From the NCBI GenBank assembly GCA_018261815.1, contig JAGTRL010000009.1, positions 1 through 34,905 on the forward strand: a DNA stretch of 34,905 bases, written 5' to 3'. The DNA is from Pseudomonadota bacterium (GTDB lineage: Bacteria; Pseudomonadota; Gammaproteobacteria; Burkholderiales; Burkholderiaceae_C). The translations under genes and the position numbers were made by a program. The notes under the pieces are model-generated. The model was not told the DNA's origin. It saw nothing but the letters and a program-made list of their open reading frames with translations, and ran no database searches. Shown here in pieces: positions 2,826 to 32,848 of this stretch (position 1 is its first letter; every line of letters starts with the position of its first letter).

Positions 2826-2894
2826 CAAGTGCGCAGGTTAAGCTTCGGGCGGCATGCCGGCGGCGGGTGACGTCGTCCAGACCAGGAGAAGACC

Positions 2895-3942: not shown

Positions 3943-3944
3943 CT

Positions 3945-7428: not shown

Positions 7429-7473
7429 GGTGCAAGCTCCGGAGGCTGGCCTGGGCCCGGGCTGGGTGAATTC

Positions 7474-7479
7474 AGTATA
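7474..7479 (-). promoter_or_regulatory. Candidate -10 box for the STAS operon
   Basis: Read on the minus strand this is TATACT, a near-consensus -10 hexamer, about 45 bases upstream of the STAS start codon at 7428. It sits in the only AT-containing patch of the divergent gap. No convincing -35 lies 16-18 bases further upstream (CCCCCT or CCCCTT), so the promoter would be weak, activated, or read by another sigma factor. Confidence 0.4.
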
Positions 7480-7563
7480 GGAGATGCCGTCCGCGAAGGG
7501 GGGCTCACGACGCCCGCTACGATGTCGAACGCGACCCCGCGGCCGCAGGAGAGCGAACCCGTC

Positions 7564-9417
7564 GTGTCCAACGCCCCCGTTGCCCCGCCGCCGAGCGGCG
7601 TGAATCCGCAGCCACCTTCGCCGAACGCAGAGCTGCAGGCCTTCGAGCGACTGCTCGCCGAACTGTCGGCCGGCTTCATCGGCCTGGCTGCCGAACGCAT
7701 CGATGCGGCGATCGAGGACGCGCTGCGCCGCATCGTGCTCGCGCTGGACATCGACCGTTGTTCGTTGATCGCGGTGTCGCCGGTCACCGGGCGCATCGAG
7801 ACCACACATTCCTGGGCGCTGGAAGGCGTCGAGCGAACGCCATGGCTGAACGTCGGGCAGAGCAATCCCTGGGCCTTGAGCATGGCGCAGGCGGGCCGGC
7901 CCGTGGTCTTTGCGCGGCTCGACGAGGTACCGACCGAGGCGGCGGTGGACAAGGCCACGTGGCGGCGCGTCGGCCTGAAGTCGCATGTCGGCATGCCACT
8001 GCTCGTGGCCGGGAACTTGCGCGGAGGGCTCACCTTCGGGGCGCTGCGCCGCGAGCGCGAATGGCCGGGCGAGCTGCTGGGCCGCATGCGGATGCTGGCC
8101 GATGTCTTTGCCGGTGTGTTGGCGCGCCAGCATGCCGAAGCGCAGCGTGAGCGCGCTCTCGACTTCGAACGCTTGGCCTCGCGCACGTTGAGCGCGCTGC
8201 TGATTGCCGAGCCGCAGGATGAAGCGCGCATCATCGAAACGGGTCTGCGCGATATCGCGCGTTTCCTCGGCGCGGACCGGGCGACGCTGTGGGAAATCGG
8301 CGACGATCAGCGCTACCGCCGCGCGCACCACTGGTTCGCCGACGGTGCGCCCGCGGCCGAGCCCTGGTCGCAGGAAGAACTGCCGTGGATCGGCCTGCGC
8401 CTGAGCGAAGAGTCGCTGGTGCGCTTCGCGCGACTGGACGAGTTGCCGGCCGATGCCGGCGCCGACCGGCGCGCGATGCAGGAGCTGGGCGTGCGCTCGC
8501 TGCTGGCGGTGCCGGTGACGATCGCCGGCCAACGAGTGGGGGTGTTCTCGGTGGCCGCGGTACACGCGGAATGCGACTGGCCCGACGAACTGCTGCCCGG
8601 CGTGCGCCTGCTGGCCGAGGTCTTTGCCACGCTGCACGTGCGGCGCCATTCCGAGCAGCGCGAGCGCGCCGCCGAAGCCGAAGCCGCGCTGTGGCGCGAA
8701 CAGTTCGCGCATGTGGTGCGGGTGCACACCGTCGGCGAGATGTCGGCGGCGCTGGCGCACGAGATCACCCAGCCGCTGGGTGCGATCGAGAACTACGCAC
8801 TCGCCGCACGGCGCCGCGCGTCCGGGCCCGCGCCCGATCTGCCGAAGGTGGTCGACCTGCTGGACCGCATCGTCGCGCAGTCGGCGCGCGCCGGCGACGT
8901 GGTGACGCGCCTGCGCGGCATGGTCAAGCGCCACGAGCTGCAGCTCAGCGAAATCGACCTGGAGCGCATCGCCGCGGCCTGCATCGACCTGCTGCGCGGT
9001 GAATGCGAGCAGCACGATCTGTGTATCGAGCTGCAGCGGCCGGGCGTGCTGCCGCGCCTGGTGGCCGACGAGGTGCACGTGCAGCAGGTGCTGCTGAACC
9101 TGCTGCGCAATGCCATCGAGGCCATGCAGGCGGCACCGCCCGGGGCGCCGCGCCGGATCGAGGTGAGCATCGCACGCGTCGCGCCGGAATGGATGTCGGT
9201 GCAGGTGGCCGACCATGGTCCGGGCATTGCCGAAGCCGAACTGGAACAGGTGTTCGAGGCCTTCCACTCGACCAAGCCGCTGGGCCTGGGCGTGGGCCTG
9301 GCGATCTGCCGGCGGCTTATCGAGGCGCATGGCGGCACGCTGCGCGCGGCGCAGAATCCGGCCGGCGGCGCCTTGTTCGAGTTCACGCTGCCCCTTGCCC
9401 CACCGGAGAGCGGATGA
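7564..9417 (+). CDS. Tandem-GAF sensor histidine kinase
   Basis: This soluble 617-residue kinase has a Pro-rich N-terminus, GAF-1 (about residues 30-190), GAF-2 (about 200-360), then a HisKA/HATPase core. The phosphoacceptor is His399 in LAHEITQPLGAIENY. The N-box LLNLLRNAIEAM gives Asn516, the G1 box DHGPGIAE gives Asp550, and FHSTKPLGLGVGLAICRRL covers the F and G2 boxes. No membrane segment is seen, so it senses a cytoplasmic signal. GTG 7564 is preferred because AGGAG lies at 7547-7551, although 12 bases is a long spacing; ATG 7522 is in frame but has no ribosome binding site. TACGAT at 7518-7523 may be a -10 box. The response regulator gene overlaps its stop by 4 bases, and the fatty alcohol cluster downstream is the likely target. 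Confidence 0.9.
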   Translation: MSNAPVAPPPSGVNPQPPSPNAELQAFERLLAELSAGFIGLAAERIDAAIEDALRRIVLALDIDRCSLIAVSPVTGRIETTHSWALEGVERTPWLNVGQSNPWALSMAQAGRPVVFARLDEVPTEAAVDKATWRRVGLKSHVGMPLLVAGNLRGGLTFGALRREREWPGELLGRMRMLADVFAGVLARQHAEAQRERALDFERLASRTLSALLIAEPQDEARIIETGLRDIARFLGADRATLWEIGDDQRYRRAHHWFADGAPAAEPWSQEELPWIGLRLSEESLVRFARLDELPADAGADRRAMQELGVRSLLAVPVTIAGQRVGVFSVAAVHAECDWPDELLPGVRLLAEVFATLHVRRHSEQRERAAEAEAALWREQFAHVVRVHTVGEMSAALAHEITQPLGAIENYALAARRRASGPAPDLPKVVDLLDRIVAQSARAGDVVTRLRGMVKRHELQLSEIDLERIAAACIDLLRGECEQHDLCIELQRPGVLPRLVADEVHVQQVLLNLLRNAIEAMQAAPPGAPRRIEVSIARVAPEWMSVQVADHGPGIAEAELEQVFEAFHSTKPLGLGVGLAICRRLIEAHGGTLRAAQNPAGGALFEFTLPLAPPESG

Positions 9418-10052
9418 CCGAAGCCACCGTCTTCATCGTCGACGACGACGAGGCCTATCGCGACTCGCTGGTCGAGCTGGTCGCCTCGGTCGGCCTGCGC
9501 AACGAGTGTTTTGCCTCGGCGCTGGATTTCCTGGCCGCCTTCGACCCGGAGCGCGCCGGCTGCCTGGTGCTCGACGTGCGCATGGCGCGTTTGAGTGGCC
9601 TCGCGCTGCAGGCGCAGCTGAAGGCCATGGGCGCCACGCTGCCCATCGTCTTCATCAGCGGCCATGGCGACCTCGAGATGGCGGTCAAGGCCATCAAGGA
9701 CGGCGCCGTCGACTTCGTGCAGAAGCCCTATCGCGAGCAGCAGCTGCTCGATGCCATCAACGAGGCCCTGCAGCGTGATGCGCAGCGGCGCCGCACGCCA
9801 CCGCCGGCCGAAGCTGCGGCCGCCACCGGCTTGTCGCTGGCGCTGCTCAGCGCACGCGAGCGCGAGGTCATGCAGCTGGCGCTGCAGGGCCTGCCGAGTA
9901 AGTTGATCGCCAAGCAGCTCTCGCTCAGCCATCGCACCGTCGAGCACCACCGCAGCCGGCTGCTGGAAAAACTGGGCGTGGCCTCGATGGCCGAGCTGAT
10001 GCGGCTGAACTACCAGCAGGCGCTGGACGGCAGCGCAGCGCCACCTAAGTAG
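9414..10052 (+). CDS. FixJ/NarL-type response regulator with LuxR HTH
   Basis: This 212-residue protein has a receiver domain with acidic pocket Asp10-Asp12, phosphoacceptor Asp54 (LVLDVRM) and conserved Lys104 (FVQKPY). A Pro/Ala linker leads to a C-terminal LuxR-type HTH (LSAREREVMQLALQGLPSKL and LSHRTVEHHRSRLLEKLGV). ATG 9414 overlaps the kinase stop in an ATGA arrangement, and a GGAGAG ribosome binding site lies just upstream, so the pair is co-translated. By family it is a DNA-binding activator phosphorylated by the preceding kinase. Its direct position upstream of the aldehyde dehydrogenase gene makes the long plus-strand cluster its most likely regulon; that target is inference. Confidence 0.94.
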   Translation: MTEATVFIVDDDEAYRDSLVELVASVGLRNECFASALDFLAAFDPERAGCLVLDVRMARLSGLALQAQLKAMGATLPIVFISGHGDLEMAVKAIKDGAVDFVQKPYREQQLLDAINEALQRDAQRRRTPPPAEAAAATGLSLALLSAREREVMQLALQGLPSKLIAKQLSLSHRTVEHHRSRLLEKLGVASMAELMRLNYQQALDGSAAPPK

Positions 10053-10061
10053 GCTTGCGGT

Positions 10062-10082
10062 GGGCGCACGGATGGTGCGCCC
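10062..10082 (+). promoter_or_regulatory. Perfect 8-bp hairpin between response regulator and pseudo-receiver
   Basis: Arms GGGCGCAC (10062-10069) and GTGCGCCC (10075-10082) flank a 5-base loop. There is no following T-run, so it is not a canonical intrinsic terminator. It could dampen read-through, stabilise the upstream mRNA, or be a dyad bound by a regulator in the 70-base gap before the next gene. Confidence 0.35.
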
Positions 10083-10122
10083 GGTCCCGACGCAGCACCA
10101 TGGCGATGCTGCGAGGGAGGCG

Positions 10123-10506
10123 ATGTTCAACACGGTGTATGTGCTCGAACGCGATCCGGCCGAATGCCGCTGGATCGAGTCCGCGCTGGCAGGCCGCGTG
10201 CGCACGATCGTCTTCCTGACGGACGGCGCCACGCTGCCCGACTGGCTGGCGGCGCAGGGGGGTGATTGCCTGCTCTGCAGCGTCGAACCCGATGCGAAGG
10301 CCGCGTTGGAGCTGGTGCGCGGCCTGCGCCGGCGCGGCGAAATGCTGCCGGTGGTGATGCTCGGCCCGCACAGTGCCTTCCGCACCGCGGTGGACGTGGC
10401 GCGGCTGAGCGCCACCGACTTCCTGGAGCGCCCGGTCAGCGCGCAGCGGCTGCGCGCCGCGCTGCACAGGGTGACGGCGGTGGTCGAAGAAAGCGCCAAG
10501 CGCTGA
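10123..10506 (+). CDS. Stand-alone degenerate receiver (pseudo-receiver) protein
   Basis: This 127-residue protein aligns along its length with the receiver domain of the preceding regulator (VYVLERDPAECRWIESAL, then GDCLLCSVEPD, then DFLERPVSAQRLRAAL). The phosphoacceptor Asp is replaced by Ser53, the conserved Lys by Arg103, and only one of the N-terminal acidic residues remains (Asp11). It has no output domain. ATG 10123 is chosen because GAGGGAGG lies just upstream; the frame is open upstream, but that part looks non-coding. It is probably not phosphorylated in the usual way and may act as a protein-binding modulator of the kinase or regulator. The fold assignment rests on this alignment; the role is inferred. 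Confidence 0.75.
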   Translation: MFNTVYVLERDPAECRWIESALAGRVRTIVFLTDGATLPDWLAAQGGDCLLCSVEPDAKAALELVRGLRRRGEMLPVVMLGPHSAFRTAVDVARLSATDFLERPVSAQRLRAALHRVTAVVEESAKR

Positions 10507-10521
10507 ACGAGGAGGACGACG

Positions 10522-12000
10522 GTGAACGAACACACACGTGAATCGCAACCGGCGCTGGCCGCGGTCGAGCGCGTGCAGCGGCTGTACGGCGCGCAGCGCG
10601 CGGCCTGCCTGACCCAGCCTTACCCGAGCGGCGACGAGCGCGTGGCGCGGCTGAAGGCGCTGAAGCGCCAGACCCAGCGCTACCAGGACCTGCTGGCCGA
10701 GGCGATGAGCGCCGACTTCGGCTTCCGCCCGGCGGCCGAGTCGAAGATGCTCGACCTGCTCGGTTCCGTGCTCGAAGCCAACCACGCCATCTCGCACCTC
10801 AAGCGCTGGATGAAGTCGAGCCCGCGCTCGACCGAGCTGCTGTTCCTCGGCAACCGCATCAAGGTCACCTACCAGCCCAAGGGCGTGGTCGGCGTGATCG
10901 TGCCGTGGAACTTCCCGATCTACCTGGCGATGGGCCCGCTGGTCACCGCGCTGGCGGCGGGCAACCGCGTGATGATCAAGATGAGCGAGATCACGCCGGC
11001 CACCAACGCGGTCTTCAAGCGCCTGCTGGCCGAGGTCTACCCCGAGGACCTGGTGGCGGTGGTCGGCGAGGAACTGGTCGACCCCAACGTCTTCACCTCG
11101 CTGCCCTTCGACCACATCGTCTTCACCGGCTCGCCGGCGGTCGGCAAGATCGTCATGCGCACCGCGGCGCAGAACCTGACGCCGGTGACGCTGGAGCTCG
11201 GCGGCAAGTCGCCGGCCGTGGTCTCGCGCCACTACCCGCTGGCCGATGCGGCGCGGCGCATCACGCACGGCAAGTCGGTCAACTGCGGCCAGATCTGCAT
11301 CGCGCCCGACTATGCGTTGGTGCCGCGCGAGAGCCAGGGCGAGTTCGTGGCCGCGGTCAAGGCCAGCTTCGAAGCCATGTACGGCGCGCGCACCGAAGGC
11401 AACCCCAACTTCACCAGCGTGGTCAGTGAGCGCCAGTTCCAGCGCCTGCAGGCCGCGCTCGACGACGCGCGCGCCAAGGGCGCCACCGTCACCGCCTGCG
11501 CGCCGCTACCCTCGGGCGCCGGCAACCGCCAGCTGCCGCTGCACATCGTCACCGGCGCGACGCCGCAGATGACGGTGCTGCAGGACGAGCTGTTCGGCCC
11601 GGTGCTGCCGGTGGTGCCCTACGACCAGCTGGACGACGCCATCGCCTTCATCCATGCCCGCCCGCGCCCGCTGGCACTGTACTGCTTCAGCGGCGACGCG
11701 GCCGAGCGCGACGAGCTGCTGCGGCGCACGCACTCCGGCGGCGTCACGCTCAACGACTGGGGCTGGCACGCCATCAACCACGACGCGCCTTTCGGCGGCA
11801 TCGGCAACTCCGGCATCGGCAACTACCACGGCGAAGAGGGCTTCCGTGAGCTGTCGCATGCGCGCACCGTGTTCGAGCGCCGGCGCTGGTTCCCGACGCA
11901 GCTGTTCCACCCGCCCTACGGCAGCTTCGTGCAGCGCTTGTCGATGAAGTACTTTCTTGGCGAAGCCGATCCCTCGCTGGGCGGCAAGCCGGGGCACTGA
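10522..12000 (+). CDS. Aldehyde dehydrogenase, coniferyl aldehyde dehydrogenase / LaoC-like
   Basis: This 492-residue NAD(P)-dependent aldehyde dehydrogenase has the cofactor loop GVVGVIVPWNFPIYLAMGPL, general base Glu225 (TLELGGKSPAVV) and catalytic Cys259 (NCGQICIAPDY). The C-terminal NDWGWHAINHDAPFGGIGNS is typical of the coniferyl aldehyde dehydrogenase branch. In Pseudomonas aeruginosa a protein of this branch (LaoC, PA0366) sits with LaoA and LaoB and oxidises long-chain aldehydes; homologues of both partners occur further along this cluster. It would turn fatty aldehyde into fatty acid. GTG 10522 follows a GAGGAG ribosome binding site and lies 15 bases after the pseudo-receiver gene. 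The chain-length preference is inferred from context. Confidence 0.88.
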   Translation: MNEHTRESQPALAAVERVQRLYGAQRAACLTQPYPSGDERVARLKALKRQTQRYQDLLAEAMSADFGFRPAAESKMLDLLGSVLEANHAISHLKRWMKSSPRSTELLFLGNRIKVTYQPKGVVGVIVPWNFPIYLAMGPLVTALAAGNRVMIKMSEITPATNAVFKRLLAEVYPEDLVAVVGEELVDPNVFTSLPFDHIVFTGSPAVGKIVMRTAAQNLTPVTLELGGKSPAVVSRHYPLADAARRITHGKSVNCGQICIAPDYALVPRESQGEFVAAVKASFEAMYGARTEGNPNFTSVVSERQFQRLQAALDDARAKGATVTACAPLPSGAGNRQLPLHIVTGATPQMTVLQDELFGPVLPVVPYDQLDDAIAFIHARPRPLALYCFSGDAAERDELLRRTHSGGVTLNDWGWHAINHDAPFGGIGNSGIGNYHGEEGFRELSHARTVFERRRWFPTQLFHPPYGSFVQRLSMKYFLGEADPSLGGKPGH

Positions 12001-12033
12001 GAGCCCACCACAACCACAACGAAGGAGGAGACG

Positions 12034-13587
12034 ATGCCCACGCTGTCGGCGATGGACCTGGCGATGTTCATGCTCGAATCGCCCGAGCGCCCGTTCAACA
12101 TCGGCCCGCTGGTGCTGCTGCGCCCGCCCGCCACGGTGCAGCCCGGTGCCTTTGCCGACAAACTGCGCAACAAGATGCTGAAGCGCCCGCCCGGGCCGCC
12201 ATTCAATTACCAGCTGAAGATGTCGCTGCTCAAAGCCCCGGCGGTCGAGCCGATGGCCGATCCCGAGCTGAAGCGCCACGTCCACCGGCTGACGCTCGAC
12301 CAGGCGCCGATGCAGCAGCTGATGGAACAGGTGTGCGTGTTGCACGAGCCGCTGCTCGATCGCTCGGGGCTGCTGTGGCAGTTCTGGATCATCGACGGCC
12401 TTGCCGACGGACGCATCGCGTTGTACGGCAAGGTGCACCACGGCATCATCGACGGGCGCACCTTCGTCAAGGCGATCACGCAGTGGCTCAGCCCCGATGC
12501 GAAGGACAAGGAGGTGCGCGCCTTGTGGGACGGCGTCGCCCGCAGCGGCGCCGCCGAACGCGAACGCGCCGGCCTGGTGCAGCGGCTGCTGAAGGGCGGC
12601 GCCGTGGCCACCGGGCTGCTGCGCACCACCGCCGGGGTGGCCGGCATGATGGCCGAACAGGGGCTGCGCTCGGCCGGCCTGGGCATGGGCCGGGGACTGC
12701 CGCTACCGTTTCTGAAGGTGCCCGGCGTGTTCGAGGGCCGGCTGTCGGCCAAACGCTCCTTCGCCTGGTCCACGCTGCCGCTGGCGGAGATGAAGGCGTT
12801 GGGCAAGGCCCATGGCGCCACCATCAATGACATGCTGCTGACGGTGCTCGACATCGCGATGCACCGCTACCTGGCCGAGCGCGGCCAGAAGATCGCCGGC
12901 TCACTGGTGGCCGACATGCCGGTGGCACTGGCCGGCGCGAAGGGCGGCAACCAGATCGCGGTGCTGCAGTTTCCGCTTGGCGTGGGCAACGCGTCGGTGC
13001 TGCAGCGGCTGGACAAGATCCGCGCCGAGACGGGCCGTCTCAAGGCCTCGCTCGGCCAGCGCGGCAGCGAGGCGGTGATGCTCTACACCACACTGGTGCA
13101 TGCGCTGCCGGTGCTGGTGGAGCGGGTCGCGGCGAAGGCCGCGCCGATGCACTCGAACCTGATGGTGTCGAACCCGTTCGGCGTCGAAGGCGAGCGCTGG
13201 CTGATGGGTGCGGCAGTCGAGCTGGCGCTGCCGGTGTCGGTCATCGCGGCCGGGCACAAGCTCAACATCACCGCGGTGACGCTGGGCACACGCCTGCAGC
13301 TCGGGCTTCTGGCCATGCCCGACGCCGTGCCGCAGCTCGAACGGCTGGCGCAACTGACTGGGGAGGCCTTCGCCGAACTGAGCGCGGCGCTGGCGCCCAC
13401 GCCCCCCGCACCGCCGTCCGAACCACTCCCCGCACCACCCCCCGCACGGCGCCGCAGCAAGCCGGCGGCCACGCCGCACCGCGCCGGCGCGAGCGCAAGC
13501 AAAGCACCGGCGAGCGGCGGCCGCACCGCCCGCGCCAAAACAACGACCCATCCACGAAAACCCAAAGCAGGAGCCAACCAAAAATGA
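12034..13587 (+). CDS. WS/DGAT-family wax ester synthase / diacylglycerol acyltransferase-like protein
   Basis: This 517-residue acyltransferase belongs to the bacterial WS/DGAT family. The active-site motif HHGIIDG starts at His135-His136, with Asp140 and Gly141 conserved. Other landmarks are PFNIGPLVLL near the N-terminus, ATINDMLLTVLDIAM, and SNLMVSNPFG. Such enzymes esterify acyl-CoA with a fatty alcohol (wax ester) or diacylglycerol (triacylglycerol). Both an alcohol pathway and an acyl-CoA synthetase are encoded alongside. The last 70 or so residues are unusual: a Pro-rich linker, then a Lys/Arg/Ala/Thr-rich basic tail (ARRRSKPAATPHRAG; ARAKTTTHPRKPKAG) reminiscent of histone H1-like or PhaF-type tails. 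The start has an AAGGAGGAG ribosome binding site; the stop overlaps the next start by 3 bases. Confidence 0.85.
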   Translation: MPTLSAMDLAMFMLESPERPFNIGPLVLLRPPATVQPGAFADKLRNKMLKRPPGPPFNYQLKMSLLKAPAVEPMADPELKRHVHRLTLDQAPMQQLMEQVCVLHEPLLDRSGLLWQFWIIDGLADGRIALYGKVHHGIIDGRTFVKAITQWLSPDAKDKEVRALWDGVARSGAAERERAGLVQRLLKGGAVATGLLRTTAGVAGMMAEQGLRSAGLGMGRGLPLPFLKVPGVFEGRLSAKRSFAWSTLPLAEMKALGKAHGATINDMLLTVLDIAMHRYLAERGQKIAGSLVADMPVALAGAKGGNQIAVLQFPLGVGNASVLQRLDKIRAETGRLKASLGQRGSEAVMLYTTLVHALPVLVERVAAKAAPMHSNLMVSNPFGVEGERWLMGAAVELALPVSVIAAGHKLNITAVTLGTRLQLGLLAMPDAVPQLERLAQLTGEAFAELSAALAPTPPAPPSEPLPAPPPARRRSKPAATPHRAGASASKAPASGGRTARAKTTTHPRKPKAGANQK

Positions 13588-15569
13588 AGACCCCTCCCTA
13601 CCCCTTGGCCGCGCTGATCGGCGCGGCGCTGCTGCTCGGCGGCTGCGCGTCCGCGCCGACCGCGCCGACCGCCTCCAACATGACGGCGAAGCCGGCAACG
13701 TCGACCACCGAACGCGCCAACGCCTCCGTGCGCCAGGCCGTGGCGGCCTTCGACAAACGCGACTTCGACGACGCGACACGTGGCAAGCTGGCCGCGCTGA
13801 ACGACCCGCTGGTCAAGGCGGCGGATGGCCGCACCGTCTGGGATACGCGCAGCTTTGACTTCCTCAAGGGCGACGCGCCGGCCAGTGCCAACCCCAGCTT
13901 GTGGCGCATGCAGCAGCTGAACCACGCGCAGGGCCTGTTCAAGGTGGCCGATGGCATTTACCAGATCCGCGGCTACGACCTGGCGAACATGACGCTGGTC
14001 GAGGGCAACACCGGCTGGATCGTCATCGACACGCTGCTCACGCCGGAGATGGCGCGTGTCGGCCTGAAACTGGCGATGGACACGCTGAAGAGCAGCAAGC
14101 CGGTGGTCGCGGTGATCTACACCCACAGCCACGTCGACCACTTCGGCGGCGTGCGCGGCGTGGTCGACGAGGCCGACGTGCGCTCGGGCAAGGTCAAGCT
14201 GATCGCGCCCGACGCCTTCATGGAATACGCCATCGCCGAGAACGTGCTCGCTGGCAATGCGATGTCGCGGCGCGCTCAATTCATGTATGGCGTGGGCCTG
14301 CCGGCCAGCGACAAGGGCACGCTCGGCACCGGCCTGGGGCTGGGCTTGAGCAGCAGCGTGCCGGGGCTGATCCCGCCGAGCCAGTACATCAAGAAGACCG
14401 GCGAAGAGATGACCATCGACGGCGTGCGCATCCAGTTCCAGATGGCCAAGGGCTCGGAGGCGCCGTCGGAGTTCATGTTCTATTTCCCGGACAAAAAGGC
14501 GCTGTGCCTGTCGGAAGTGGCGACCAAGCTGATGCACAACATCTACACCATCCGCGGTGCGCAGGTGCGCGACGCGCTGGGCTGGAGCAAGTACATCAAC
14601 GAGACGATGGACCTGTTCCCGGATGCCGAGGTGGCTTTTGCCAGCCACCACTGGCCCACCTGGGGCAAGGACAACATCCGCGGCTTCCTGGCCAACCAGC
14701 GCGACACCTACCGCTTCCTGCACGACCGCGCGCTGCACCTGGCCAACCAGGGGCTGGTGATGGACGAGCTGGGCAGCGACACCTTCGTCCCCAAGGCGCT
14801 GGCCACCGACGCCGCCTCACGCGGCTACTACGGCACGCTCAGCCACAACCTGCGTGCGGTCTACAACTTCTACCTCGGCTACTACGACGGCAACCCGGCC
14901 ACGCTGCACCGGCTGCCGCCGGCGGACGCTGCCCGCCGCTACGTCGCCGCGATGGGCGGCGAGGCGGCGGTGCTGGCCACCGGCCGCAAGGCCTTCGCCG
15001 ACGGCGACTACCGGTGGGTGGCCGAGATGGTCAACCACGTGGTCTTCGCCAACCCGGCCAATGCTGAGGCGCGCGCGCTGCAGGCCGACGCGCTGGAGCA
15101 ACTGGGCTACCAGGCCGAATCGGCGCCGTGGCGCAACGCCTACCTGTTGGGTGCGCAGGAGCTGCGCGTTGGCCCGAAGCCCTCGGTACTCAGCTCCAGC
15201 GGCCCGGACACCGTGCGCGGCATGACCAACGAGCTGCTCTTCGACTTCATCGCGCTGCGCCTGGACCACACCAAGACCGACGGGCTGAAGGCGGCCGTGC
15301 AGATGCGCTTCACCGACGTCAACGAGACCTGGGCGCTGGAGTTGTCGAACTCGGTGCTCAACAACACCAAGGGCCGCATGTTGAAGAACCCCGACGTCAC
15401 CATCACGCTGACGCGCCCGGCCTTCCTGGCCATGCTGCTGCAGGGCAAGAAGCTGCCCGAGCTAGTGCAAGCCGGTATGGTCAAGGTCGAGGGCAACCCA
15501 CAGGCCTTCGGCGCGCTGGTGGCCAACATCGTCGTCTTCGATCCGTCCTTCAACATCGTTACGCCTTGA
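13584..15569 (+). CDS. SdsA1-type alkyl sulfatase, lipoprotein
   Basis: This 661-residue enzyme has a lipoprotein signal peptide (lipobox LGGC, Cys21, Ala at +2), an MBL-fold catalytic domain, a dimerisation/helical region and a C-terminal SCP2-like domain (about residues 530-661). Predicted metal ligands are His181, His183, Asp185, His186 (THSHVDHFGG), Glu292, Glu311 and His356. As I recall the seven ligands of P. aeruginosa SdsA1, every one is present at a constant offset of 12. It would cleave alkyl sulfates such as dodecyl sulfate to alcohol and sulfate at the cell envelope. ATG 13584 overlaps the WS/DGAT stop. Neighbouring LaoA/B/C-like genes would process the released alcohol. A secondary alkyl sulfate or another sulfate ester as true substrate cannot be excluded. 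Confidence 0.9.
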   Translation: MKTPPYPLAALIGAALLLGGCASAPTAPTASNMTAKPATSTTERANASVRQAVAAFDKRDFDDATRGKLAALNDPLVKAADGRTVWDTRSFDFLKGDAPASANPSLWRMQQLNHAQGLFKVADGIYQIRGYDLANMTLVEGNTGWIVIDTLLTPEMARVGLKLAMDTLKSSKPVVAVIYTHSHVDHFGGVRGVVDEADVRSGKVKLIAPDAFMEYAIAENVLAGNAMSRRAQFMYGVGLPASDKGTLGTGLGLGLSSSVPGLIPPSQYIKKTGEEMTIDGVRIQFQMAKGSEAPSEFMFYFPDKKALCLSEVATKLMHNIYTIRGAQVRDALGWSKYINETMDLFPDAEVAFASHHWPTWGKDNIRGFLANQRDTYRFLHDRALHLANQGLVMDELGSDTFVPKALATDAASRGYYGTLSHNLRAVYNFYLGYYDGNPATLHRLPPADAARRYVAAMGGEAAVLATGRKAFADGDYRWVAEMVNHVVFANPANAEARALQADALEQLGYQAESAPWRNAYLLGAQELRVGPKPSVLSSSGPDTVRGMTNELLFDFIALRLDHTKTDGLKAAVQMRFTDVNETWALELSNSVLNNTKGRMLKNPDVTITLTRPAFLAMLLQGKKLPELVQAGMVKVEGNPQAFGALVANIVVFDPSFNIVTP

Positions 15570-15584
15570 GGCGAGGAGAAAACC

Positions 15585-17207
15585 ATGATTCAACCCGGAC
15601 TGATGATGGACCAGCCGCTGCTGCTGTCCGACGTGATTGAACACGCCGCCGCGCAGTACGGCGACGTCGAGGTCGTCTCGCGCGAAACGCACGGAGCGCT
15701 GTTCCGCTACACCTATGCCGACTGCGCCAAACGCGCGCGCAAGCTGGCGCATGCGCTCGGCCAGTTGGGCCTGTCCGCCGGCAGCGCGGTCGGCTCGATC
15801 GCCTGGAACAACCACCGCCACCTCGAGGCCTACTACGCGGTTTCGGGCAGCGGCATGGTGATGCACACGGTCAACCCGCGGCTGCACCCGCAGCAGTTGA
15901 TCTACGTGGTCAACCACGCCGAAGACCAGGTGATGCTGTTCGACGCGACTTTCGCGCCGCTGATCAAGGGCATCGCCGCGCATTGCCCCAAGGTCAAGGC
16001 CTGGGTCTGCCTGGCCGACGCCGCCCACACGCCGGCCATCGAAGGCGTGGCCAACGTGCTCAGCTACGAGGACCTGATCGCGCCGCACAGCGAACACTTC
16101 GAGTGGCCGCAATTCGACGAGCACAGCGGCGCCGCGCTGTGCTACACGTCCGGCACCACCGGCAACCCGAAGGGCGCGCTGTACTCGCACCGCGCCATCG
16201 TGCTCAACGCGCTGGTTGGCTGTACGCCGGGCGTGCTGTCGCTGTCGGCGCGCGAGACCATCCTGCCGGTGGTGCCGATGTTCCACATCAATGCCTGGTG
16301 CATCCCCTATGCCGCGCCGATGGTCGGCGCCAAGCTGGTGTTGCCCGGGCCGAAGCTCGACGGCGCCAGCCTGCACGAGCTGATGGAAAGCGAGCGCGTG
16401 ACGGTCAGCGCCGGCGTGCCGACGATCTGGCTGGCGCTGCTGCAGCACGTGGAATCCCACAAGCTGCGCTTCACGACCATGCGCCGCACGGCGGTCGGCG
16501 GCTCGGCGATGCCGCAGTCGCTGATCGCGAAGTTCGCGGACGAGTACGGCGTCGAGGTGCGCCACGGCTGGGGCATGACCGAGACCACCGCGGTGGCGAC
16601 GATGAGCGCGCTGACCAGCAAGCACGACGCGCTAAAGCCCGCCGACCAACATGCGGTCATCGCCAAGCAGGGCAAGGCGGTGTTCGGTGTACGCATCAAG
16701 GTGATCGACGAGAACGGCGCCGACTTGCCGCGCGACGGCCAGGCGCAGGGCGAGCTGATGGTGCGCGGGCAGTGGATCGTCTCGGGCTACTTCAAGGGCG
16801 CCGAGTCGCCGCTGCGCGACGGCTGGTTCCCCACCGGCGACGTGGCGACGATCGACGCCGACGGCGTGATGCAGATCCGCGACCGCGCCAAGGACGTGAT
16901 CAAGACCGGCGGCGAGTGGATCAGCTCGATCGACCTGGAAAACGCCGCGATGGCGCACCCCGCGGTGGCGATGGCGGCGGTGATCGGCGTCAAACATCCC
17001 AAGTGGGACGAGCGTCCGCTGCTGTTCATCGTGCGCAAGCCGGGGCAGGCGCTGGAGAAGGAACAGATCCTCGCGTTCCTGACCGAGCGTGTCGCCAAGT
17101 GGTGGGTGCCCGACGACGTGGTCTTCCTCGAGTCGCTGCCGGTGGGCGGCACGGGCAAGGTGCAGAAGGCCGACCTGCGCAAGCAGTACGGTGGTGTGTT
17201 CAGTTGA
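15585..17207 (+). CDS. AlkK-like medium/long-chain acyl-CoA synthetase
   Basis: This 540-residue AMP-forming ligase is of the adenylate-forming superfamily. The P-loop is YTSGTTGNPKGALYSH; further motifs are PMFHINAWCIPYAAPM, GWGMTETTAVATMS, GWFPTGDVATID, the hinge segment IRDRAKDVIKTGGEWISS and the C-terminal catalytic lysine region VGGTGKVQKADLR. It activates a fatty acid with ATP and CoA. The length and the FHxNAWC and GGEWISS segments fit the AlkK branch active on medium-chain acids. AGGAG precedes ATG 15585, 15 bases after the sulfatase gene. In context it converts the acid made by the aldehyde dehydrogenase into acyl-CoA for beta-oxidation or for the WS/DGAT enzyme. It is cytoplasmic, with no signal. 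Confidence 0.9.
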   Translation: MIQPGLMMDQPLLLSDVIEHAAAQYGDVEVVSRETHGALFRYTYADCAKRARKLAHALGQLGLSAGSAVGSIAWNNHRHLEAYYAVSGSGMVMHTVNPRLHPQQLIYVVNHAEDQVMLFDATFAPLIKGIAAHCPKVKAWVCLADAAHTPAIEGVANVLSYEDLIAPHSEHFEWPQFDEHSGAALCYTSGTTGNPKGALYSHRAIVLNALVGCTPGVLSLSARETILPVVPMFHINAWCIPYAAPMVGAKLVLPGPKLDGASLHELMESERVTVSAGVPTIWLALLQHVESHKLRFTTMRRTAVGGSAMPQSLIAKFADEYGVEVRHGWGMTETTAVATMSALTSKHDALKPADQHAVIAKQGKAVFGVRIKVIDENGADLPRDGQAQGELMVRGQWIVSGYFKGAESPLRDGWFPTGDVATIDADGVMQIRDRAKDVIKTGGEWISSIDLENAAMAHPAVAMAAVIGVKHPKWDERPLLFIVRKPGQALEKEQILAFLTERVAKWWVPDDVVFLESLPVGGTGKVQKADLRKQYGGVFS

Positions 17208-17219
17208 CGGGAGACGCGC

Positions 17220-17783
17220 ATGCATTTCGACCCTGCTGACGACCGCAGCCTGGCGCGGCGCGATTTCCTCAAGGTCGGCGTCGGCTTCTCGCTGGCGCTG
17301 ACGCTGGCCGGCACGGTCGGCTGCAGCGGTGACACCAAGACGCCGGTGGCCGGCTACGCCTTCCTGCAGCCGGGCGACGTCGAGCTGTTCAGCGCGCTGG
17401 CACCGGCGGTGGTGACCGAACTCGGCGCCTTCGACGCGGCCCAGCGCAAGACCCTGCTCGAGGCCGTGCTGCGCAACGTCGACGGCACCCTCGCGGCCAT
17501 GGGCCAGGGTGCGCGGCAGGAAGTGCGCAAGCTGCTCGACCTGCTGGCCATCGGCCCGCTGCGCTACGTGCTCACCGGTGTGGGCGCCTGGAACGAAGCC
17601 GGCATCGACAAGATGCAGGCCTTCCTGGCCCGCTGGCGCGGCAGCCGCTTCGCCACGCTGAATGCCGGCGGCAACGTGCTGGTCAAGCTGACCTCGTCCA
17701 GCTTCTACGTCCTGCCCGAGAGCTGGCCTGCCACCGGCTACCCCGGGCCGCTGGACTACGTGTTCAAGGCCGTCAATTCCTAA
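17220..17783 (+). CDS. Tat-signal small partner protein, LaoB-like
   Basis: This 187-residue protein has a twin-arginine signal (ARRDFLKVGVGFSLALTLAG) followed by a Cys (VGCSGD) that may make it a Tat lipoprotein, although the lipobox is weak. The mature part is helical and has no metal or cofactor motif I recognise. It ends SFYVLPESWPATGYPGPLDY. Position and size match LaoB (PA0365) of P. aeruginosa, encoded beside the GMC alcohol dehydrogenase LaoA, and also resemble the small third subunit of gluconate dehydrogenases. It is 9 bases ahead of the GMC gene. It probably binds and stabilises, and may export, the dehydrogenase. The start ATG 17220 has GGGAG upstream. Confidence 0.78.
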   Translation: MHFDPADDRSLARRDFLKVGVGFSLALTLAGTVGCSGDTKTPVAGYAFLQPGDVELFSALAPAVVTELGAFDAAQRKTLLEAVLRNVDGTLAAMGQGARQEVRKLLDLLAIGPLRYVLTGVGAWNEAGIDKMQAFLARWRGSRFATLNAGGNVLVKLTSSSFYVLPESWPATGYPGPLDYVFKAVNS

Positions 17784-17792
17784 GGAAGAACC

Positions 17793-19385
17793 ATGGCTGT
17801 ACCCGACATCTACACCGAGGGCATCGCCTCGGGCTGGAAGGTCATCGATGCCTCCCGCTTGAGCGCGCCGCAGACGATGGACGCCGACGTGGCCATCATC
17901 GGCAGCGGTGCCGGCGGCGGCGTGGCCGCCGAGATCCTGGCTCTTGCCGGGCTGAAGGTGCTGCTGCTGGAAGAGGGCGCGCTGCGCACCTCGGACAGCT
18001 TCCGCGACATGGACGAGGGCCGCGCCATGCGCGAGCTGTACCAGGAAGGCGCCGCGCGTGCCACCTCGGACGGTGCCATCGCGGTGTTGCAGGGGCGCTC
18101 GGTGGGCGGCTCCACCACCGTCAACTGGACTTCGAGCTTCCGCACGCCGGCGCCGACGCTGAAGCACTGGGCCGCCGAACATGAGGTGGTGGGCCATGGC
18201 GTGGATGACATGAAGCCCTGGTTCGAGCAGATGGAAAAGCGCCTGGACGTCGCGCTGTGGGAGGCGCAGAACGCCAACAACAGCGTGCTGATGCGCGGCT
18301 GCCAGAAGCTCGGCTGGGAGGCGCACGCGATTCCGCGCAACGTGCGCGGCTGCTGGAATTCGGGCTACTGCGGCATGGGCTGCCCGGTCAATGCCAAGCA
18401 GTCGATGCTGGTGTCCACCATCCCCGAGGCGCTGCGCCACGGCGCGACGCTGGTGCACCGGCTGCGCGTGCGCCAGCTGCAGCATGCCGACGGCAAGATC
18501 ACGGGAGCCGTCGGCGAGGCACTGCGCGACGATGGCCGCACGCCCAGCGGCACCTTGGTGACGATCAAGGCGAGGCACTTCATCGCCGCCGGCGGCGCCA
18601 TCAACACCCCGGCGCTGCTGCTGCGATCGCAGCTGCCCGACCCGCACAAGCGGCTGGGCACGCACACGCTGATCCATCCGGTGGTGCTGACGCTGGCGCA
18701 GATGCCCGAGCGCATCGACCCCTTCTACGGCGCGCCGCAGAGCACCGCCTCCGACCACTTCCAGTGGAAGGACGGTGCCACCGGTCCGATGGGCTACAAG
18801 CTCGAGGTGGCGCCGATCTTCCCCGGCATCGGTGCGGGCGTGCTCAATGCCTTTGGCGACGAGTTGCGCAAGGAGATGGCGGCGCTGGTGCACACCAACG
18901 CGGTGCTGGCGCTGCTGCGCGACGGCTTCGTCGAGCAGAGCCCCGGCGGCAGCGTGCGCCTGGCCGACGACGGCAGTCCGATGCTCGACTACGAGCTGAG
19001 CGACTATGTGTGGGAGGGCGCGCGCCGCGCTTATCTGAGCATGGCCGAGCTGCAGTTCGCGGCCGGTGCCAAGCAGGTGCGGGCGGCGCACCTCGACGCG
19101 CGCTACGTGGGCAGCTGGAACGAGGCGAAGAAGGCCATCGCCGAACTGCCGCTGCAGAAGTTCCGCGCCACGCTGTTCACCGCGCACCTGATGGGCGGCT
19201 GCGCGATGAGCGAGAACCCGAAGCGCGGCGTGGTCAACAGCCGCGGCCGGCATCACCAGGTGGCCAACCTGTCGGTGATGGACGGCTCGGTGTTCCCCAC
19301 CAGCATCGGCGCCAATCCGCAGCTGTCGATCTATGGGTTGGTGGCGCAGAACGCCACCGCGCTGGTCAAGGACCTGCGCGCCTGA
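17793..19385 (+). CDS. GMC-family FAD alcohol dehydrogenase, LaoA-like
   Basis: This 530-residue GMC oxidoreductase has the FAD-binding Rossmann motif VAIIGSGAGGGVAAEILALA, the substrate-side GRSVGGSTTVNWTSSF, a Cys cluster (GCWNSGYCGMGCPVNAKQS), AAGGAINTPALLLRSQ, and the C-terminal catalytic region HLMGGCAMSENPKRG with SVMDGSVFPTSIGANPQLS. Relatives include LaoA (PA0364), which oxidises long-chain primary alcohols to aldehydes. There is no signal peptide of its own, while the preceding gene carries a Tat signal. It would act on the alcohol released by the sulfatase, passing electrons to the respiratory chain rather than to NAD. GGAAG precedes ATG 17793. The class is certain; the long-chain alcohol substrate rests on context and resemblance. 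Confidence 0.87.
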   Translation: MAVPDIYTEGIASGWKVIDASRLSAPQTMDADVAIIGSGAGGGVAAEILALAGLKVLLLEEGALRTSDSFRDMDEGRAMRELYQEGAARATSDGAIAVLQGRSVGGSTTVNWTSSFRTPAPTLKHWAAEHEVVGHGVDDMKPWFEQMEKRLDVALWEAQNANNSVLMRGCQKLGWEAHAIPRNVRGCWNSGYCGMGCPVNAKQSMLVSTIPEALRHGATLVHRLRVRQLQHADGKITGAVGEALRDDGRTPSGTLVTIKARHFIAAGGAINTPALLLRSQLPDPHKRLGTHTLIHPVVLTLAQMPERIDPFYGAPQSTASDHFQWKDGATGPMGYKLEVAPIFPGIGAGVLNAFGDELRKEMAALVHTNAVLALLRDGFVEQSPGGSVRLADDGSPMLDYELSDYVWEGARRAYLSMAELQFAAGAKQVRAAHLDARYVGSWNEAKKAIAELPLQKFRATLFTAHLMGGCAMSENPKRGVVNSRGRHHQVANLSVMDGSVFPTSIGANPQLSIYGLVAQNATALVKDLRA

Positions 19386-19420
19386 AGGACCTGTTGCCAC
19401 CGAAGAAGAGGAGACCCGCG

Positions 19421-20101
19421 ATGCCCACGCCCGCCAAGACCCGCCGCAGTGCGAAGCCCGCCAAAGCGGTCAAACCGGCCCTGCCGACGCCGGCCTGGCC
19501 GTCGCTGGAAGCCGCTGCGCCGCTGCTCAATGTCGCCAAGGAGCTGCGCCGCTGGACCGACAACCTGCTCGGAGTGGCCGGCAGCGCCGGCGAGCTGTCG
19601 CTGAACCTGGCCAAGGCACGGGCCGGCGAGCCGCGCGAGCGCGAGCGCATCGACCAGGCGGCGACGATGCTGCGCCAGGCGCGCGAAACCGCCGGCATGA
19701 GCACGCGCGAGCTGAGCCAGGCGATCGGGCTGGACGACCCGAAGCTGCTCCAGCAGGCGGAAGGCGGCACGGTGGCGCTGCCTTTCGAGGTGGTGCTGCG
19801 CCTGGCCGGGGTGCTGGGCCGGCACGACCCGTCGACCTTCGCGATGAAGCTGGCGCGCAGCTACAACCCTACGCTGTGGAAGGCCCTCGACGACCTGGGC
19901 ATCGGCAAGCTGGTGGCGCTGGCCGGGCGCGAGCGCGAGCTGGCCAACCTGTACCGCGGCAACGACGACGCGCGGCGTCTGTCCGACGAGGGCTTTGCCG
20001 AGGTGCTGGCCTTCACCAAGACGGCCTTCGACATGGCGGTGCGCTTCCGCGTCGCGCCCGGCGGCAAGGCCGCGCGGCGGGGCGACGCTGCGGCAGCCTG
20101 A
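19421..20101 (+). CDS. Helix-turn-helix (XRE-type) protein with basic N-terminal tail
   Basis: This 226-residue protein begins with a Lys/Ala/Pro-rich tail (PAKTRRSAKPAKAVKPALP). An amphipathic region follows, then an XRE/Cro-type HTH at about residues 85-135 (LRQARETAGMSTRELSQAIG and GGTVALPFEVVLRLAGVLG), then a helical C-terminal part. It may regulate the cluster, or bind DNA as part of a lipid-inclusion complex, given the phasin-like neighbour. GAGGAG precedes ATG 19421. It lies inside the plus-strand series between the GMC dehydrogenase and the phasin-like gene. The HTH is confidently seen; the target is unknown. Confidence 0.75.
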   Translation: MPTPAKTRRSAKPAKAVKPALPTPAWPSLEAAAPLLNVAKELRRWTDNLLGVAGSAGELSLNLAKARAGEPRERERIDQAATMLRQARETAGMSTRELSQAIGLDDPKLLQQAEGGTVALPFEVVLRLAGVLGRHDPSTFAMKLARSYNPTLWKALDDLGIGKLVALAGRERELANLYRGNDDARRLSDEGFAEVLAFTKTAFDMAVRFRVAPGGKAARRGDAAAA

Positions 20102-20132
20102 TCCACGACAGCGCAAGCAGCAGGAGCAGCGC

Positions 20133-20657
20133 ATGCCGATACCGAAGATGGCCAGCAAGAAAGCCGCAGCAAAAGCTGCGACTCGAAAGGCACCGGTGCG
20201 CAAGACCGGGGCACGCCGCGCTGTGCCCCCCGTGTCGGCGGCGCCGCCCGACGAGCGCTCGCTGCAGGAGCTGCTCGGGCGGCTGGGCCGGCTCGAACTG
20301 GCGGGCCTGGCCGGGCGCCTGGTCGAGGGCTGGCGCAAGGACCTGCAGGCGCTGATGGCGGCCAGCCAGCGCTCGTACGCCGGGTTGCAGGAAGTGGTGG
20401 CGCGGCAGACCGCGCAGATCAAGGACGCCGCGGGCGAGCTGCGCAGCGTCGGCATGGCGATGGGCGTGGCCGGCGCGAGCGAGAGCGTGCGTCGGCTCGA
20501 TGACCTGGCCGTGGGCGCTCTGCAATTGGCGCTGAACGACATCCGCGAGCTGTCGGACATGGCGGCGAAGTCGCAGCGCGAGGCCTACGAGCTGGTGCAG
20601 CGTCGTGTGGCCGAGAACCTCGACGAGGTGCAGAGCGCGTTGCGCAAGGACGGATGA
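20133..20657 (+). CDS. Phasin-like protein with Lys/Ala-rich N-terminus
   Basis: This 174-residue protein is almost wholly helical. A basic head (KMASKKAAAKAATRKAPVRK) is followed by a Leu-rich coiled region with the phasin-like look of DLQALMAASQRSYAGLQEVV and SQREAYELVQRRVAENLDEV. Phasins coat polyhydroxyalkanoate or other lipid inclusions. No PHA synthase is in the window, but a WS/DGAT acyltransferase is in the same series, so neutral-lipid droplets are a possible alternative cargo. AGGAG lies before ATG 20133. Its stop overlaps the next start (ATGA). The assignment rests on composition and pattern, so moderate confidence only. Confidence 0.62.
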   Translation: MPIPKMASKKAAAKAATRKAPVRKTGARRAVPPVSAAPPDERSLQELLGRLGRLELAGLAGRLVEGWRKDLQALMAASQRSYAGLQEVVARQTAQIKDAAGELRSVGMAMGVAGASESVRRLDDLAVGALQLALNDIRELSDMAAKSQREAYELVQRRVAENLDEVQSALRKDG

Positions 20658-21292
20658 AGCCCCCGGCCGCGCCACCGCAGGTGCCGCGCGCCGCGGCGGC
20701 GGCGGGCGTGGCCTTTGCGCTGCTGTTCGGCAGCGCGCTGCTGCTGGTGCGGTTGTCGATCCCGGGCTCGATCGCCGAGCGCGGCGGCTGGCTGGCCGAT
20801 CCGGCCGGCACGCTGCGCCTGGCCACGCACCTGCTGGCCTGGGGCGGCATCGCCTTCCTTTGGTTCATCGGCGTGGTGCGCACGCACATCGGCGCGCGCG
20901 AGGACCGCTTCCTGGCGTCGGTGTACTTCGGCAGCGGCGTGCTGTTCCTGGGCATGTGCTTCGTCGCCGCCGCGGCCACGCAGGCCCTGCTGGCGGCGCA
21001 TGCGCAGTACGGCGAGCGCTTCTTCGACAGCGGCACCTTCGCGTTCGGCGGCCGGTTGGCCTACGAGCTGACCAACACCTATGCGCTGCGCATGGCCGGT
21101 GTGTTCATGTTCTCGCTGGCCACGCTGTGCTTTCGCACCGGCGCCATGCCGAGGCCCTTGGTCTGGGTCACCTGGGGCCTGGCGACGCTGCTGGTGCTGG
21201 GGCTGACGCAGACGCTGTGGGCGGCGCTGCTGTTCCCGGCGTGGGTGCTGGGTTTCAGCCTGTACCTGCTGTGGGCGCCACGCAAGGGTTGA
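20654..21292 (+). CDS. Polytopic membrane protein of unknown function
   Basis: This 212-residue protein has about five or six hydrophobic segments, including AAAGVAFALLFGSALLLVRL, LLAWGGIAFLWFIGVV, FGSGVLFLGMCFVAAAAT, VWVTWGLATLLVLGLTQTLW and LLFPAWVLGFSLYLLW. I recognise no catalytic motif. ATG 20654 overlaps the stop of the phasin-like gene, so it is translationally coupled and looks like the last gene of the long plus-strand cluster. A role in lipid or alcohol handling at the inner membrane would be a guess from position only. Confidence 0.75.
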   Translation: MKPPAAPPQVPRAAAAAGVAFALLFGSALLLVRLSIPGSIAERGGWLADPAGTLRLATHLLAWGGIAFLWFIGVVRTHIGAREDRFLASVYFGSGVLFLGMCFVAAAATQALLAAHAQYGERFFDSGTFAFGGRLAYELTNTYALRMAGVFMFSLATLCFRTGAMPRPLVWVTWGLATLLVLGLTQTLWAALLFPAWVLGFSLYLLWAPRKG

Positions 21293-21645
21293 TGCAAGCG
21301 TGGGTTCGAAGCCGGGTCGACGCACGGCAGTGCAGCTTGCAGCGCGTTGCTGACATTGCCGAAGCCGTCGGGTTGGCGCAGGCCGGCGTGCCGAGTCGGC
21401 TGCGGTAGCGCAATGGCGTCACCCGCGTTGTCCGGCCCACGCTCGCGGGCGAGCGATTGCTGTTCGCCGCCGTGACCTCTTCACCACCGACCAGGTTGTT
21501 CAGCCGCCAGCGTGCCGCGAATGGGGCCTGCGCCCGCGGGTGGCCACCATCGCACTACAACGCTCGCTCACTGAGCGCAGGCTCGAATTCGAAAGACAGC
21601 CGAGCGCCGGGTGCTGCCTTCCTCTGCTTCGGGTTCAGAGCGTAG
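21292..21645 (+). pseudogene. Possible decayed LysR-type regulator fragment
   Basis: The 373-base gap between the membrane protein and xdhB has no intact gene. One plus-strand frame from ATG 21292 (overlapping the preceding stop) is open to 21645 except for a single TAG at 21406-21408. Before the stop it reads VADIAEAVGLAQAGVPSRLR, which resembles a LysR HTH (LGLAQPxVSRRLR). After it comes VVRPTLAGERLLFAAV, which resembles the RPTxAGERLL that follows a LysR HTH, but with too short a distance between the two. The remaining frame is unremarkable. This may be a remnant or chance similarity in GC-rich DNA. Confidence 0.25.
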
Positions 21646-21665
21646 CCCGGTATGCGTCCATCGAT

Positions 21666-24008: not shown

Positions 24009-24025
24009 GGCTCGAGCCTCCCTTC

Positions 24026-25585: not shown

Positions 25586-25636
25586 GCTTGCCCTCGCTGC
25601 TGAGACAGGGCCAACACTAACGCCTGACGGCGCCGC

Positions 25637-25666
25637 TTGATATACGCATTCGTAACTATTAAATAT
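25637..25666. promoter_or_regulatory. AT-rich divergent promoter/operator between xdhA and the LysR gene
   Basis: This roughly 30-base stretch is markedly AT-rich against its surroundings. It contains the dyad TACG-catt-CGTA (25643-25654) inside a T-N11-A type context typical of LysR sites. On the plus strand TTGATA (25637-25642) and TAAATA (25660-25665), 17 bases apart, make a plausible -35/-10 pair, whose start point would lie at or next to the ATG codons at 25667-25679. For xdhA a TATATC -10 candidate reads on the minus strand at 25639-25644, within the same dyad region. The binding protein is inferred to be the adjacent LysR product. Confidence 0.5.
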
Positions 25667-27948: not shown

Positions 27949-28019
27949 CCCGGCCCATCCGCACCCGAAGAAGCGACACGCCCGCCACGCACACCAAGCA
28001 CCTGCCAGGAGACAACACC

Positions 28020-30648: not shown

Positions 30649-30663
30649 GAGAGGGACACCGAA

Positions 30664-32828: not shown

Positions 32829-32848
32829 CGCCGCTTCGCTTCGATCTC

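Follow-up and report, generated by a model that had tools for sequence, protein, structure and literature searches.

A conserved block of genes linking an alkyl sulfatase to a WS/DGAT acyltransferase in a Burkholderiaceae_C bacterium: a candidate operon for alkyl-sulfate and fatty-alcohol catabolism

What might a bacterium do with a row of genes in which an alkyl sulfatase, enzymes for alcohol and aldehyde oxidation, an acyl-coenzyme A (CoA) ligase and a WS/DGAT acyltransferase are all encoded in the same direction? Such a row lies in contig JAGTRL010000009.1 of a Pseudomonadota bacterium of the Burkholderiaceae_C (assembly GCA_018261815.1), of which positions 1 to 34,905, called the window here for the whole stretch of 34,905 nucleotides, were analyzed. 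The assembly containing this contig (C130 in our numbering, in which G, C and L denote genomes, contigs and loci) comprised 4.35 Mb in 460 contigs and was 85% complete. Twelve co-directional genes were located on the + strand at about 7522-21292 (Table 1), and ten of these open reading frames (ORFs) fell in 10123-21292. The original prediction had described ten co-directional genes starting at 10123 with gaps of at most 34 bases. The number and the direction of the genes were confirmed, while the spacing was measured as -4 to 35 bases and the start proved to be too far downstream, with a sensor kinase gene and a LuxR-type regulator gene preceding it. We read the block as an accessory operon that probably serves the catabolism of alkyl sulfates and fatty alcohols, in which some of the alcohol would be esterified so as to store or detoxify it, and we give this reading a probability of about two in three.

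The cluster is real and goes beyond chance because relatives with 69-92% protein identity preserve its gene order. The order of response regulator, receiver-like protein, aldehyde dehydrogenase, WS/DGAT, sulfatase, ligase, LaoB-like protein, GMC dehydrogenase and membrane protein was found in L052 and L053, and in L051 up to the contig end. These three loci are near-identical and were counted as one lineage, and L053 was taken as the same record as G016/L022. The kinase (82% identical, and at the corresponding position, in L052 and L053) and the LuxR-type regulator (90-92% identical in the syntenic loci) belong to the conserved block; their genes share 4 bases, and a gap of 70 bases lies between the regulator gene and the receiver-like gene. 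The longest ORF of the kinase begins at 7363, and its start was placed near 7522, where the alignment with the relatives begins. In the relatives, the membrane protein gene is directly 3' of the GMC gene, and no homologue of the helix-turn-helix (HTH) protein or of the phasin was found between them in L022/L053, L051 or L052. Thus, the search for the same gene order that had been proposed as a check on the original prediction succeeded in near relatives, minus the HTH and phasin genes. The absence of these two genes, which means that part of the unit was recently added or was lost in the relatives, would suit the view that, in a GC-rich genome, independent lipid genes are neighbors by chance. 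Against this view stand the conserved order of nine genes and the joint recurrence of sulfatase, aldehyde dehydrogenase and GMC dehydrogenases of varying type in Variovorax, Oxalobacteraceae, Psychrobacter and a single Holophagae contig (L060), and this already disfavored explanation is hardly credible.

The sulfatase was assigned to the SdsA1 or primary type, in agreement with the original prediction, by its metallo-beta-lactamase, dimerization and C-terminal SCP2-like domains together with its ligands and a Tyr/Gly pair. Its closest relatives in the PDB were PSdsA (4nur), 7tl5, YjcS (4pdx) and SdsA1 (2cfu). All seven zinc ligands were kept, namely H181, H183, D185, H186, E292, E311 and H355. 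A constant offset of 12 from the SdsA1 ligands had been claimed for all seven; it held for six, and the seventh, SdsA1 H344, corresponded to H355 at an offset of 11. The SdsA1 ligand numbers agreed at a constant shift of 23 with the SdsAP ligands in passages of PMC5426288. According to the same passages, hydrolysis of sodium dodecyl sulfate (SDS) requires Tyr246 and Gly263 of SdsAP (Tyr223/Gly240 of SdsA1), where Pisa1, a secondary sulfatase, has Ser/Phe (PMC5426288). Y223 and G240 mapped onto Tyr235 and Gly252 of the window sulfatase, and a Pisa1-like, secondary reading was disfavored by these two residues. Among the 15 aligned sulfatases, the Gly was kept in all and the Tyr in 11, with Phe in its place in L057, L058, L060 and a fragment of the same genome (L040), which are more distant or paralogous. 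A lipobox-like LGGC was seen by eye near residue 21. The same genome also contained a further intact alkyl sulfatase gene, 43% identical (G000:C241:2758-4743, L038), and two alkyl sulfatase fragments at the ends of contigs C157 and C269 (L039, L040) that may be one gene; one gene separated the fragment on C157 from a downstream paralogue of the window CoA ligase with 47% identity.

The remaining enzymes of the predicted set were likewise borne out by Pfam and NCBIfam domain matches. The LaoAB-type pair also stood, since the GMC gene lies beside a partner of 187 residues with a twin-arginine motif. The Arg-Arg was invariant in 23/23 aligned LaoB homologues, and a GMC match adjoined each of them; three homologues were left out of this alignment (genomes G035, G027, G030; loci L030, L035, L037), and the start codons of some of the rows are provisional. 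At E 0.001, no Pfam or NCBIfam family was matched by the LaoB-like protein or by the last, membrane protein. When the limit was relaxed to E 1, Pfam gave TAT_signal in eight of the 23 LaoB members, DUF4129 in three and Gluconate_2-dh3 in three. Comparison of the LaoB profile with the PDB gave no convincing relative (best E 0.045), and the structure model, built from a five-sequence alignment, was too poor for use (mean predicted local distance difference test score of 40). The LaoA-like protein had no match among plasmids at E 1e-120. An aldehyde dehydrogenase gene was located directly 5' of LaoB-LaoA in 2 of 16 loci of relatives (L023, L028) and in 4 of 7 loci of a further set (L063, L064, L065, L067), and in the window the WS/DGAT-sulfatase-ligase block lay between the aldehyde dehydrogenase and LaoB. 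For the ligase, which had been predicted to be AlkK-like, the family whose cut-off was passed is PRK07008, 3-(methylthio)propionyl-CoA ligase, and the nearest PDB relative of the ligase was 6ihk, named AMP-binding domain protein. In two other loci (L061, L062), LaoAB-like genes with 70-71% GMC identity were divergent from flavin monooxygenase and short-chain dehydrogenase look-alikes, with an alpha/beta hydrolase look-alike in addition in L061, all judged by eye.

Sulfatase orthologues (E ≤1e-215) were present in 5 of 81 genus genomes, including that of the window. Among 399 genomes sampled across the order, only the window's own passed E 1e-215, and among 369 across the class two others, 47% and 49% identical, were found at E 1e-190; at most three candidates were scored per genome in both samples, and the absences are not firm. 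A scan of named genomes gave 12 sulfatase loci, ten of which had a GMC gene no more than two genes away and five a WS/DGAT gene. In addition to the syntenic relatives, L049 and L050 contained only sulfatase-LaoB-GMC (the L050 contig begins at the sulfatase), two Variovorax loci (L055, L056) contained WS/DGAT-sulfatase-ligase-GMC-esterase-aldehyde dehydrogenase, an Oxalobacteraceae locus (L057) GMC-sulfatase-aldehyde dehydrogenase, and two Holophagae loci GMC-sulfatase with a 57% identical sulfatase (L058) and, on a cut contig, GMC-aldehyde dehydrogenase-sulfatase (L060). A comparable set is the SLF module (slfRCHSL) of plasmid pP62BP1 of Psychrobacter sp. DAB_AL62B, which, as reported in passages of PMC10779009, was cloned and lets E. 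coli decompose SDS. The GMC enzymes of these loci were of different types. Scored against NF058674 (cut-off 850), those of Variovorax L055 and Holophagae L058 reached 610 and 615 bits and SlfH 545 (544.9) bits, versus 79 (78.6) for the window enzyme; SlfH was 40-43% identical to the Variovorax and Holophagae enzymes, and that of L057 was choline-dehydrogenase-like (589 bits to PRK02106, cut-off 605). Because the GMC types and the ligases differ between loci, similar functional sets have been assembled from different enzymes. The conjugative plasmid pH7-48 of Acinetobacter lwoffii (L130) had an isolated alkyl sulfatase gene flanked by two IS30-family transposases, which is a sign of independent mobility of such sulfatases.

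This variety bears on the substrate. In place of detergents, the natural substrates could be different sulfate esters or simply fatty alcohols, and the sulfatase may then serve sulfur supply or act on a natural sulfolipid. The further alkyl sulfatases of the genome and the Phe in place of the substrate-site Tyr in the four sulfatases named above would agree with this, and the cholesterol-oxidase-like partners (L055, L058, SlfH) and the choline-dehydrogenase-like one in Oxalobacteraceae make other alcohols possible. However, Tyr235 and Gly252 fit the primary type, the linkage of the sulfatase to an aldehyde dehydrogenase and a CoA ligase suggests that the carbon chain is consumed, and SlfH, itself cholesterol-oxidase-like, is part of an SDS-degrading operon in the passages of PMC10779009. 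We consider such substrates a possibility, though a somewhat unlikely one.

The part of the block that sets it apart is the WS/DGAT gene directly upstream of the sulfatase. The protein contained WS_DGAT_cat and WS_DGAT_C domains, and its HHxxxDG motif was intact (HHGIIDG, residue 135). In a tree of 22 rows, which included L112, a locus described below, and 15 of the 29 readable controls (30 WS/DGAT loci were fetched), the six sulfatase-linked WS/DGATs (window, L051, L052, L053, L055 and L056) formed one clade with a support of 100/100 and a long stem. Because the WS/DGAT-sulfatase pair recurs in Variovorax with another ligase, another GMC type and an added esterase, the arrangement argues for functional coupling of the two proteins. 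The putative storage branch of the original prediction was supported in that its WS/DGAT is tied phylogenetically to the sulfatase; the phasin, absent from the syntenic relatives, is not a core member. All six linked WS/DGATs had a basic C-terminal tail with 12-14 lysine plus arginine (K+R) and 20-23 alanine plus proline (A+P) in the last 50 residues. This tail was rejected as a mark of sulfatase linkage, since 6 of the 29 other WS/DGATs had it too (K+R ≥9, A+P ≥20), or 3 of 29 under another criterion (K+R ≥9, Asp plus Glu ≤3); one tailed control (L073) came from the genome of the window itself. Judged by titles, abstract starts and term counts, none of the papers listed dealt with a unit that joins an alkyl sulfatase and a WS/DGAT, and a search for alkyl sulfatase with wax ester gave a single paper, apparently unrelated by its listing. 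Such a unit was not described in passages of PMC6107682, and the word sulfatase was absent from the main text of PMC10351704, which treats WS/DGAT gene contexts.

On these grounds, the operon might work as follows. The sulfatase, exported and lipid-anchored, would hydrolyze a primary alkyl sulfate outside the cytoplasm, and the LaoA-LaoB complex, carried out via the twin-arginine translocation (Tat) signal of LaoB as in the published LaoAB system, would oxidize the alcohol to the aldehyde. The aldehyde dehydrogenase and the CoA ligase would then convert the aldehyde to acyl-CoA for beta-oxidation, while the WS/DGAT would use the acyl-CoA to esterify some of the alcohol, or diacylglycerol. Esterification would both store carbon and take the membrane-active alcohol out of circulation. 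The GAF kinase and the LuxR-type regulator probably switch the operon on. The receiver-like protein is likely a non-phosphorylated partner because the phospho-acceptor Asp and the Lys are missing, also in L052 and L053; in the alignment with the LuxR-type regulator the Asp position was occupied by S (G in L052 and L053) and the Lys position by R. No uptake gene was recognized in the unit. If the proposed route holds, one small accessory operon turns detergent sulfate into stored neutral lipid, which would be of interest for surfactant biodegradation and waste-to-lipid strains, and the WS/DGAT-sulfatase pairing, kept while partners were exchanged, would suggest a possible role for WS/DGATs in the handling of membrane-active fatty alcohol.

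Several points weigh against the proposed operon function. The support for it comes from gene content, motifs, synteny and phylogeny, and the LaoA/LaoB naming is a putative one drawn from gene pairing and the twin-arginine motif. A scan of 7000-22000 for sigma-70-type promoters gave none, against a mean of 0.6 in shuffles. Two of the 12 scan loci stood apart: in the vicinity of L054 no gene for alcohol or aldehyde conversion was recognized and a sulfatase relative (27%) was located 5', and L059 had only an aldehyde dehydrogenase family gene about 3.6 kb upstream. A plasmid search gave 135 records matching alkyl sulfatase, of which six regions were opened and four had gene annotation; pathway neighbors were present only in SLF among these four, and alkyl sulfatases thus need no such cluster. 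The WS/DGAT-sulfatase pair was limited to three lineages among the loci found (window, L051-L053 and Variovorax), and the WS/DGAT scored 280.2 bits against TIGR02946, below the cut-off of 309.95. This score would also fit the same catabolic operon with a WS/DGAT that has no storage role, acting on another acceptor (a sterol, a hopanoid or another alcohol) or merely hitch-hiking, so that all carbon enters beta-oxidation. The SLF operon functions without a WS/DGAT, and no WS/DGAT match was found on L049 (13.4 kb around its sulfatase-LaoB-GMC set), L057, L058 or L060 (contig cut). Against this stand the intact HHxxxDG motif, the separate clade of sulfatase-linked WS/DGATs, which stay beside the sulfatase while ligase and GMC enzyme are exchanged, and the Abhydrolase_3 esterase included in the Variovorax unit (192.5 bits; scanned in L055 only). 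A WS/DGAT without a storage role is, in our view, unlikely.

The HTH and phasin genes are not core members of the catabolic operon because they are absent from the syntenic relatives; they were either added in the window lineage or lost in the relatives. The phasin domain was over the curated cut-offs of both TIGR01841 and PF09361. HTH homologues were found in 12 of 81 genus genomes, including that of the window, and the neighborhoods of 12 other loci were inspected, with L121, L122 and L126 left out. One of them, L112 (G448:C16), contained WS/DGAT, HTH protein (68% identical), phasin (61%) and ligase in one direction, with Phasin_2 and WS_DGAT matches; basic tails were present on its WS/DGAT and phasin and hardly on its HTH protein, and its ligase was 75% identical over 306 residues to the ligase of the Variovorax sulfatase locus. 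L112 is possibly a neutral-lipid granule module, and it supports a separate lipid-granule gene set that would have been joined to the sulfatase operon in the window lineage, or lost in the relatives. In L114/L115 the HTH gene was accompanied by a weaker phasin match (40%), and no phasin match was seen at the remaining inspected HTH loci. By eye, the HTH homologues of L114 and L115, from two congeneric genomes, were beside look-alikes of an electron transfer flavoprotein subunit and a pyrophosphatase, and those of L118, L123 and L125 adjoined ClpS/ClpA-like genes, with a hemerythrin-like gene too in L123 and L125. A bolder proposal would make the block a self-contained module from surfactant to wax: of two freed alcohols, one would become acyl-CoA and the other the acceptor, without other lipid input, and the basic tails of WS/DGAT, HTH protein and phasin would hold the droplets at the nucleoid while the HTH protein senses their filling. 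In this proposal, L112 would represent the granule set by itself, joined to the sulfatase operon in the window. The Lys/Ala/Pro tails are PhaF-like in character. We regard the self-contained module as improbable.

Table 1. Genes of the co-directional block in the window
Gene product	Position	Strand	Evidence
Sensor histidine kinase, GAF domains + HATPase	7522..9417	+	Pfam GAF (2 stretches), HATPase_c
LuxR-type response regulator	9414..10052	+	Response_reg + GerE
Stand-alone receiver-like protein (pseudo-receiver)	10123..10506	+	Response_reg 32.7 bits, cut-off 30.2
Aldehyde dehydrogenase, LaoC/SlfC-like	10522..12000	+	PF00171 273 bits; 39% identical to SlfC
WS/DGAT acyltransferase, HHGIIDG, basic Lys/Arg/Ala/Pro C-terminal tail	12034..13587	+	PF03007 + PF06974
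Type III alkyl sulfatase, apparent lipoprotein	13584..15569	+	PF14863, PF14864, PF00753; PF02036 also matched
Acyl-CoA ligase, SlfL type	15585..17207	+	AMP-binding; PRK07008 823.5 bits, cut-off 822; 49% identical to SlfL
LaoB-like protein, twin-arginine motif RRDFLK	17220..17783	+	Arg13-Arg14 invariant in aligned homologues
LaoA-like GMC dehydrogenase	17793..19385	+	GMC_oxred_N/C; no signal peptide seen by eye
HTH protein, basic N-terminal stretch, add-on gene	19421..20101	+	HTH_31 26.8 bits, just under cut-off 27
Phasin, basic N-terminal stretch, add-on gene	20133..20657	+	TIGR01841 32.5 bits (cut-off 30.2), Phasin_2/PF09361 27.8 bits (cut-off 24.9)
Hydrophobic, probably integral membrane protein (by eye)	20654..21292	+	90-91% identical in L051, L052, L053

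On one side of the block, at 2406-7064 (- strand), were a CHASE2-SpoIIE phosphatase gene, a HATPase_c_2 gene and, on the opposite strand, an OmpA-domain ORF, which are perhaps a partner-switching signaling set. On the other side, 21666-34000 contained molybdopterin dehydrogenase subunits (xanthine-dehydrogenase-like), an amidohydrolase, a LysR regulator, an ABC importer with a Bmp-type binding protein and an adenosine deaminase, likely a purine-use cluster. Four terminator-like sites were found in 7000-22000 versus a shuffle mean of 6.3, and the site at 21440 was dropped as evidence since such sites are fewer than in shuffles. The window had neither an Rfam match at gathering scores nor a tRNA.

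Three systems come closest to the block. LaoABCR of Pseudomonas aeruginosa, which is separate from sdsA1, combines a LaoA-type GMC enzyme, a Tat-bearing LaoB and an aldehyde dehydrogenase, and the window has proteins of all three kinds. Pseudomonas alkyl sulfatase genes tend to be located elsewhere in the genome, as stated in passages of PMC10779009, whereas the window has WS/DGAT, sulfatase and ligase between the aldehyde dehydrogenase and LaoB-LaoA. The Variovorax units J22R24/J22P240 (L055, L056), also in one direction, share the WS/DGAT (64-67% identity; 67% in L055), the sulfatase (78-79%) and the aldehyde dehydrogenase (56-58%) with the window, and differ in the ligase (27-28%; 27% in L055), the cholesterol-oxidase-like GMC enzyme, the lack of a LaoB match and the added Abhydrolase_3 esterase. 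The SLF operon, like the window, joins aldehyde dehydrogenase, GMC enzyme, sulfatase and CoA ligase in one unit, with identities of 45% for the sulfatase, 49% for the ligase and 39% for the aldehyde dehydrogenase. SlfH is a cholesterol-oxidase-like GMC enzyme, only 22% identical over 531 residues to the LaoAB-type, Tat-linked enzyme of the window; the annotated SLF region is without LaoB, WS/DGAT and phasin, and its regulator is AraC-type (SlfR) versus the kinase and LuxR-type regulator here. The words wax and storage are absent from the main text of PMC10779009. Since the passages of that paper report a published and tested operon leading from alkyl sulfate to acyl-CoA, the reading of a full route within one unit as new was dropped. 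The block is a variant of a known route, most of which had already been described, and the storage arm is its new part.

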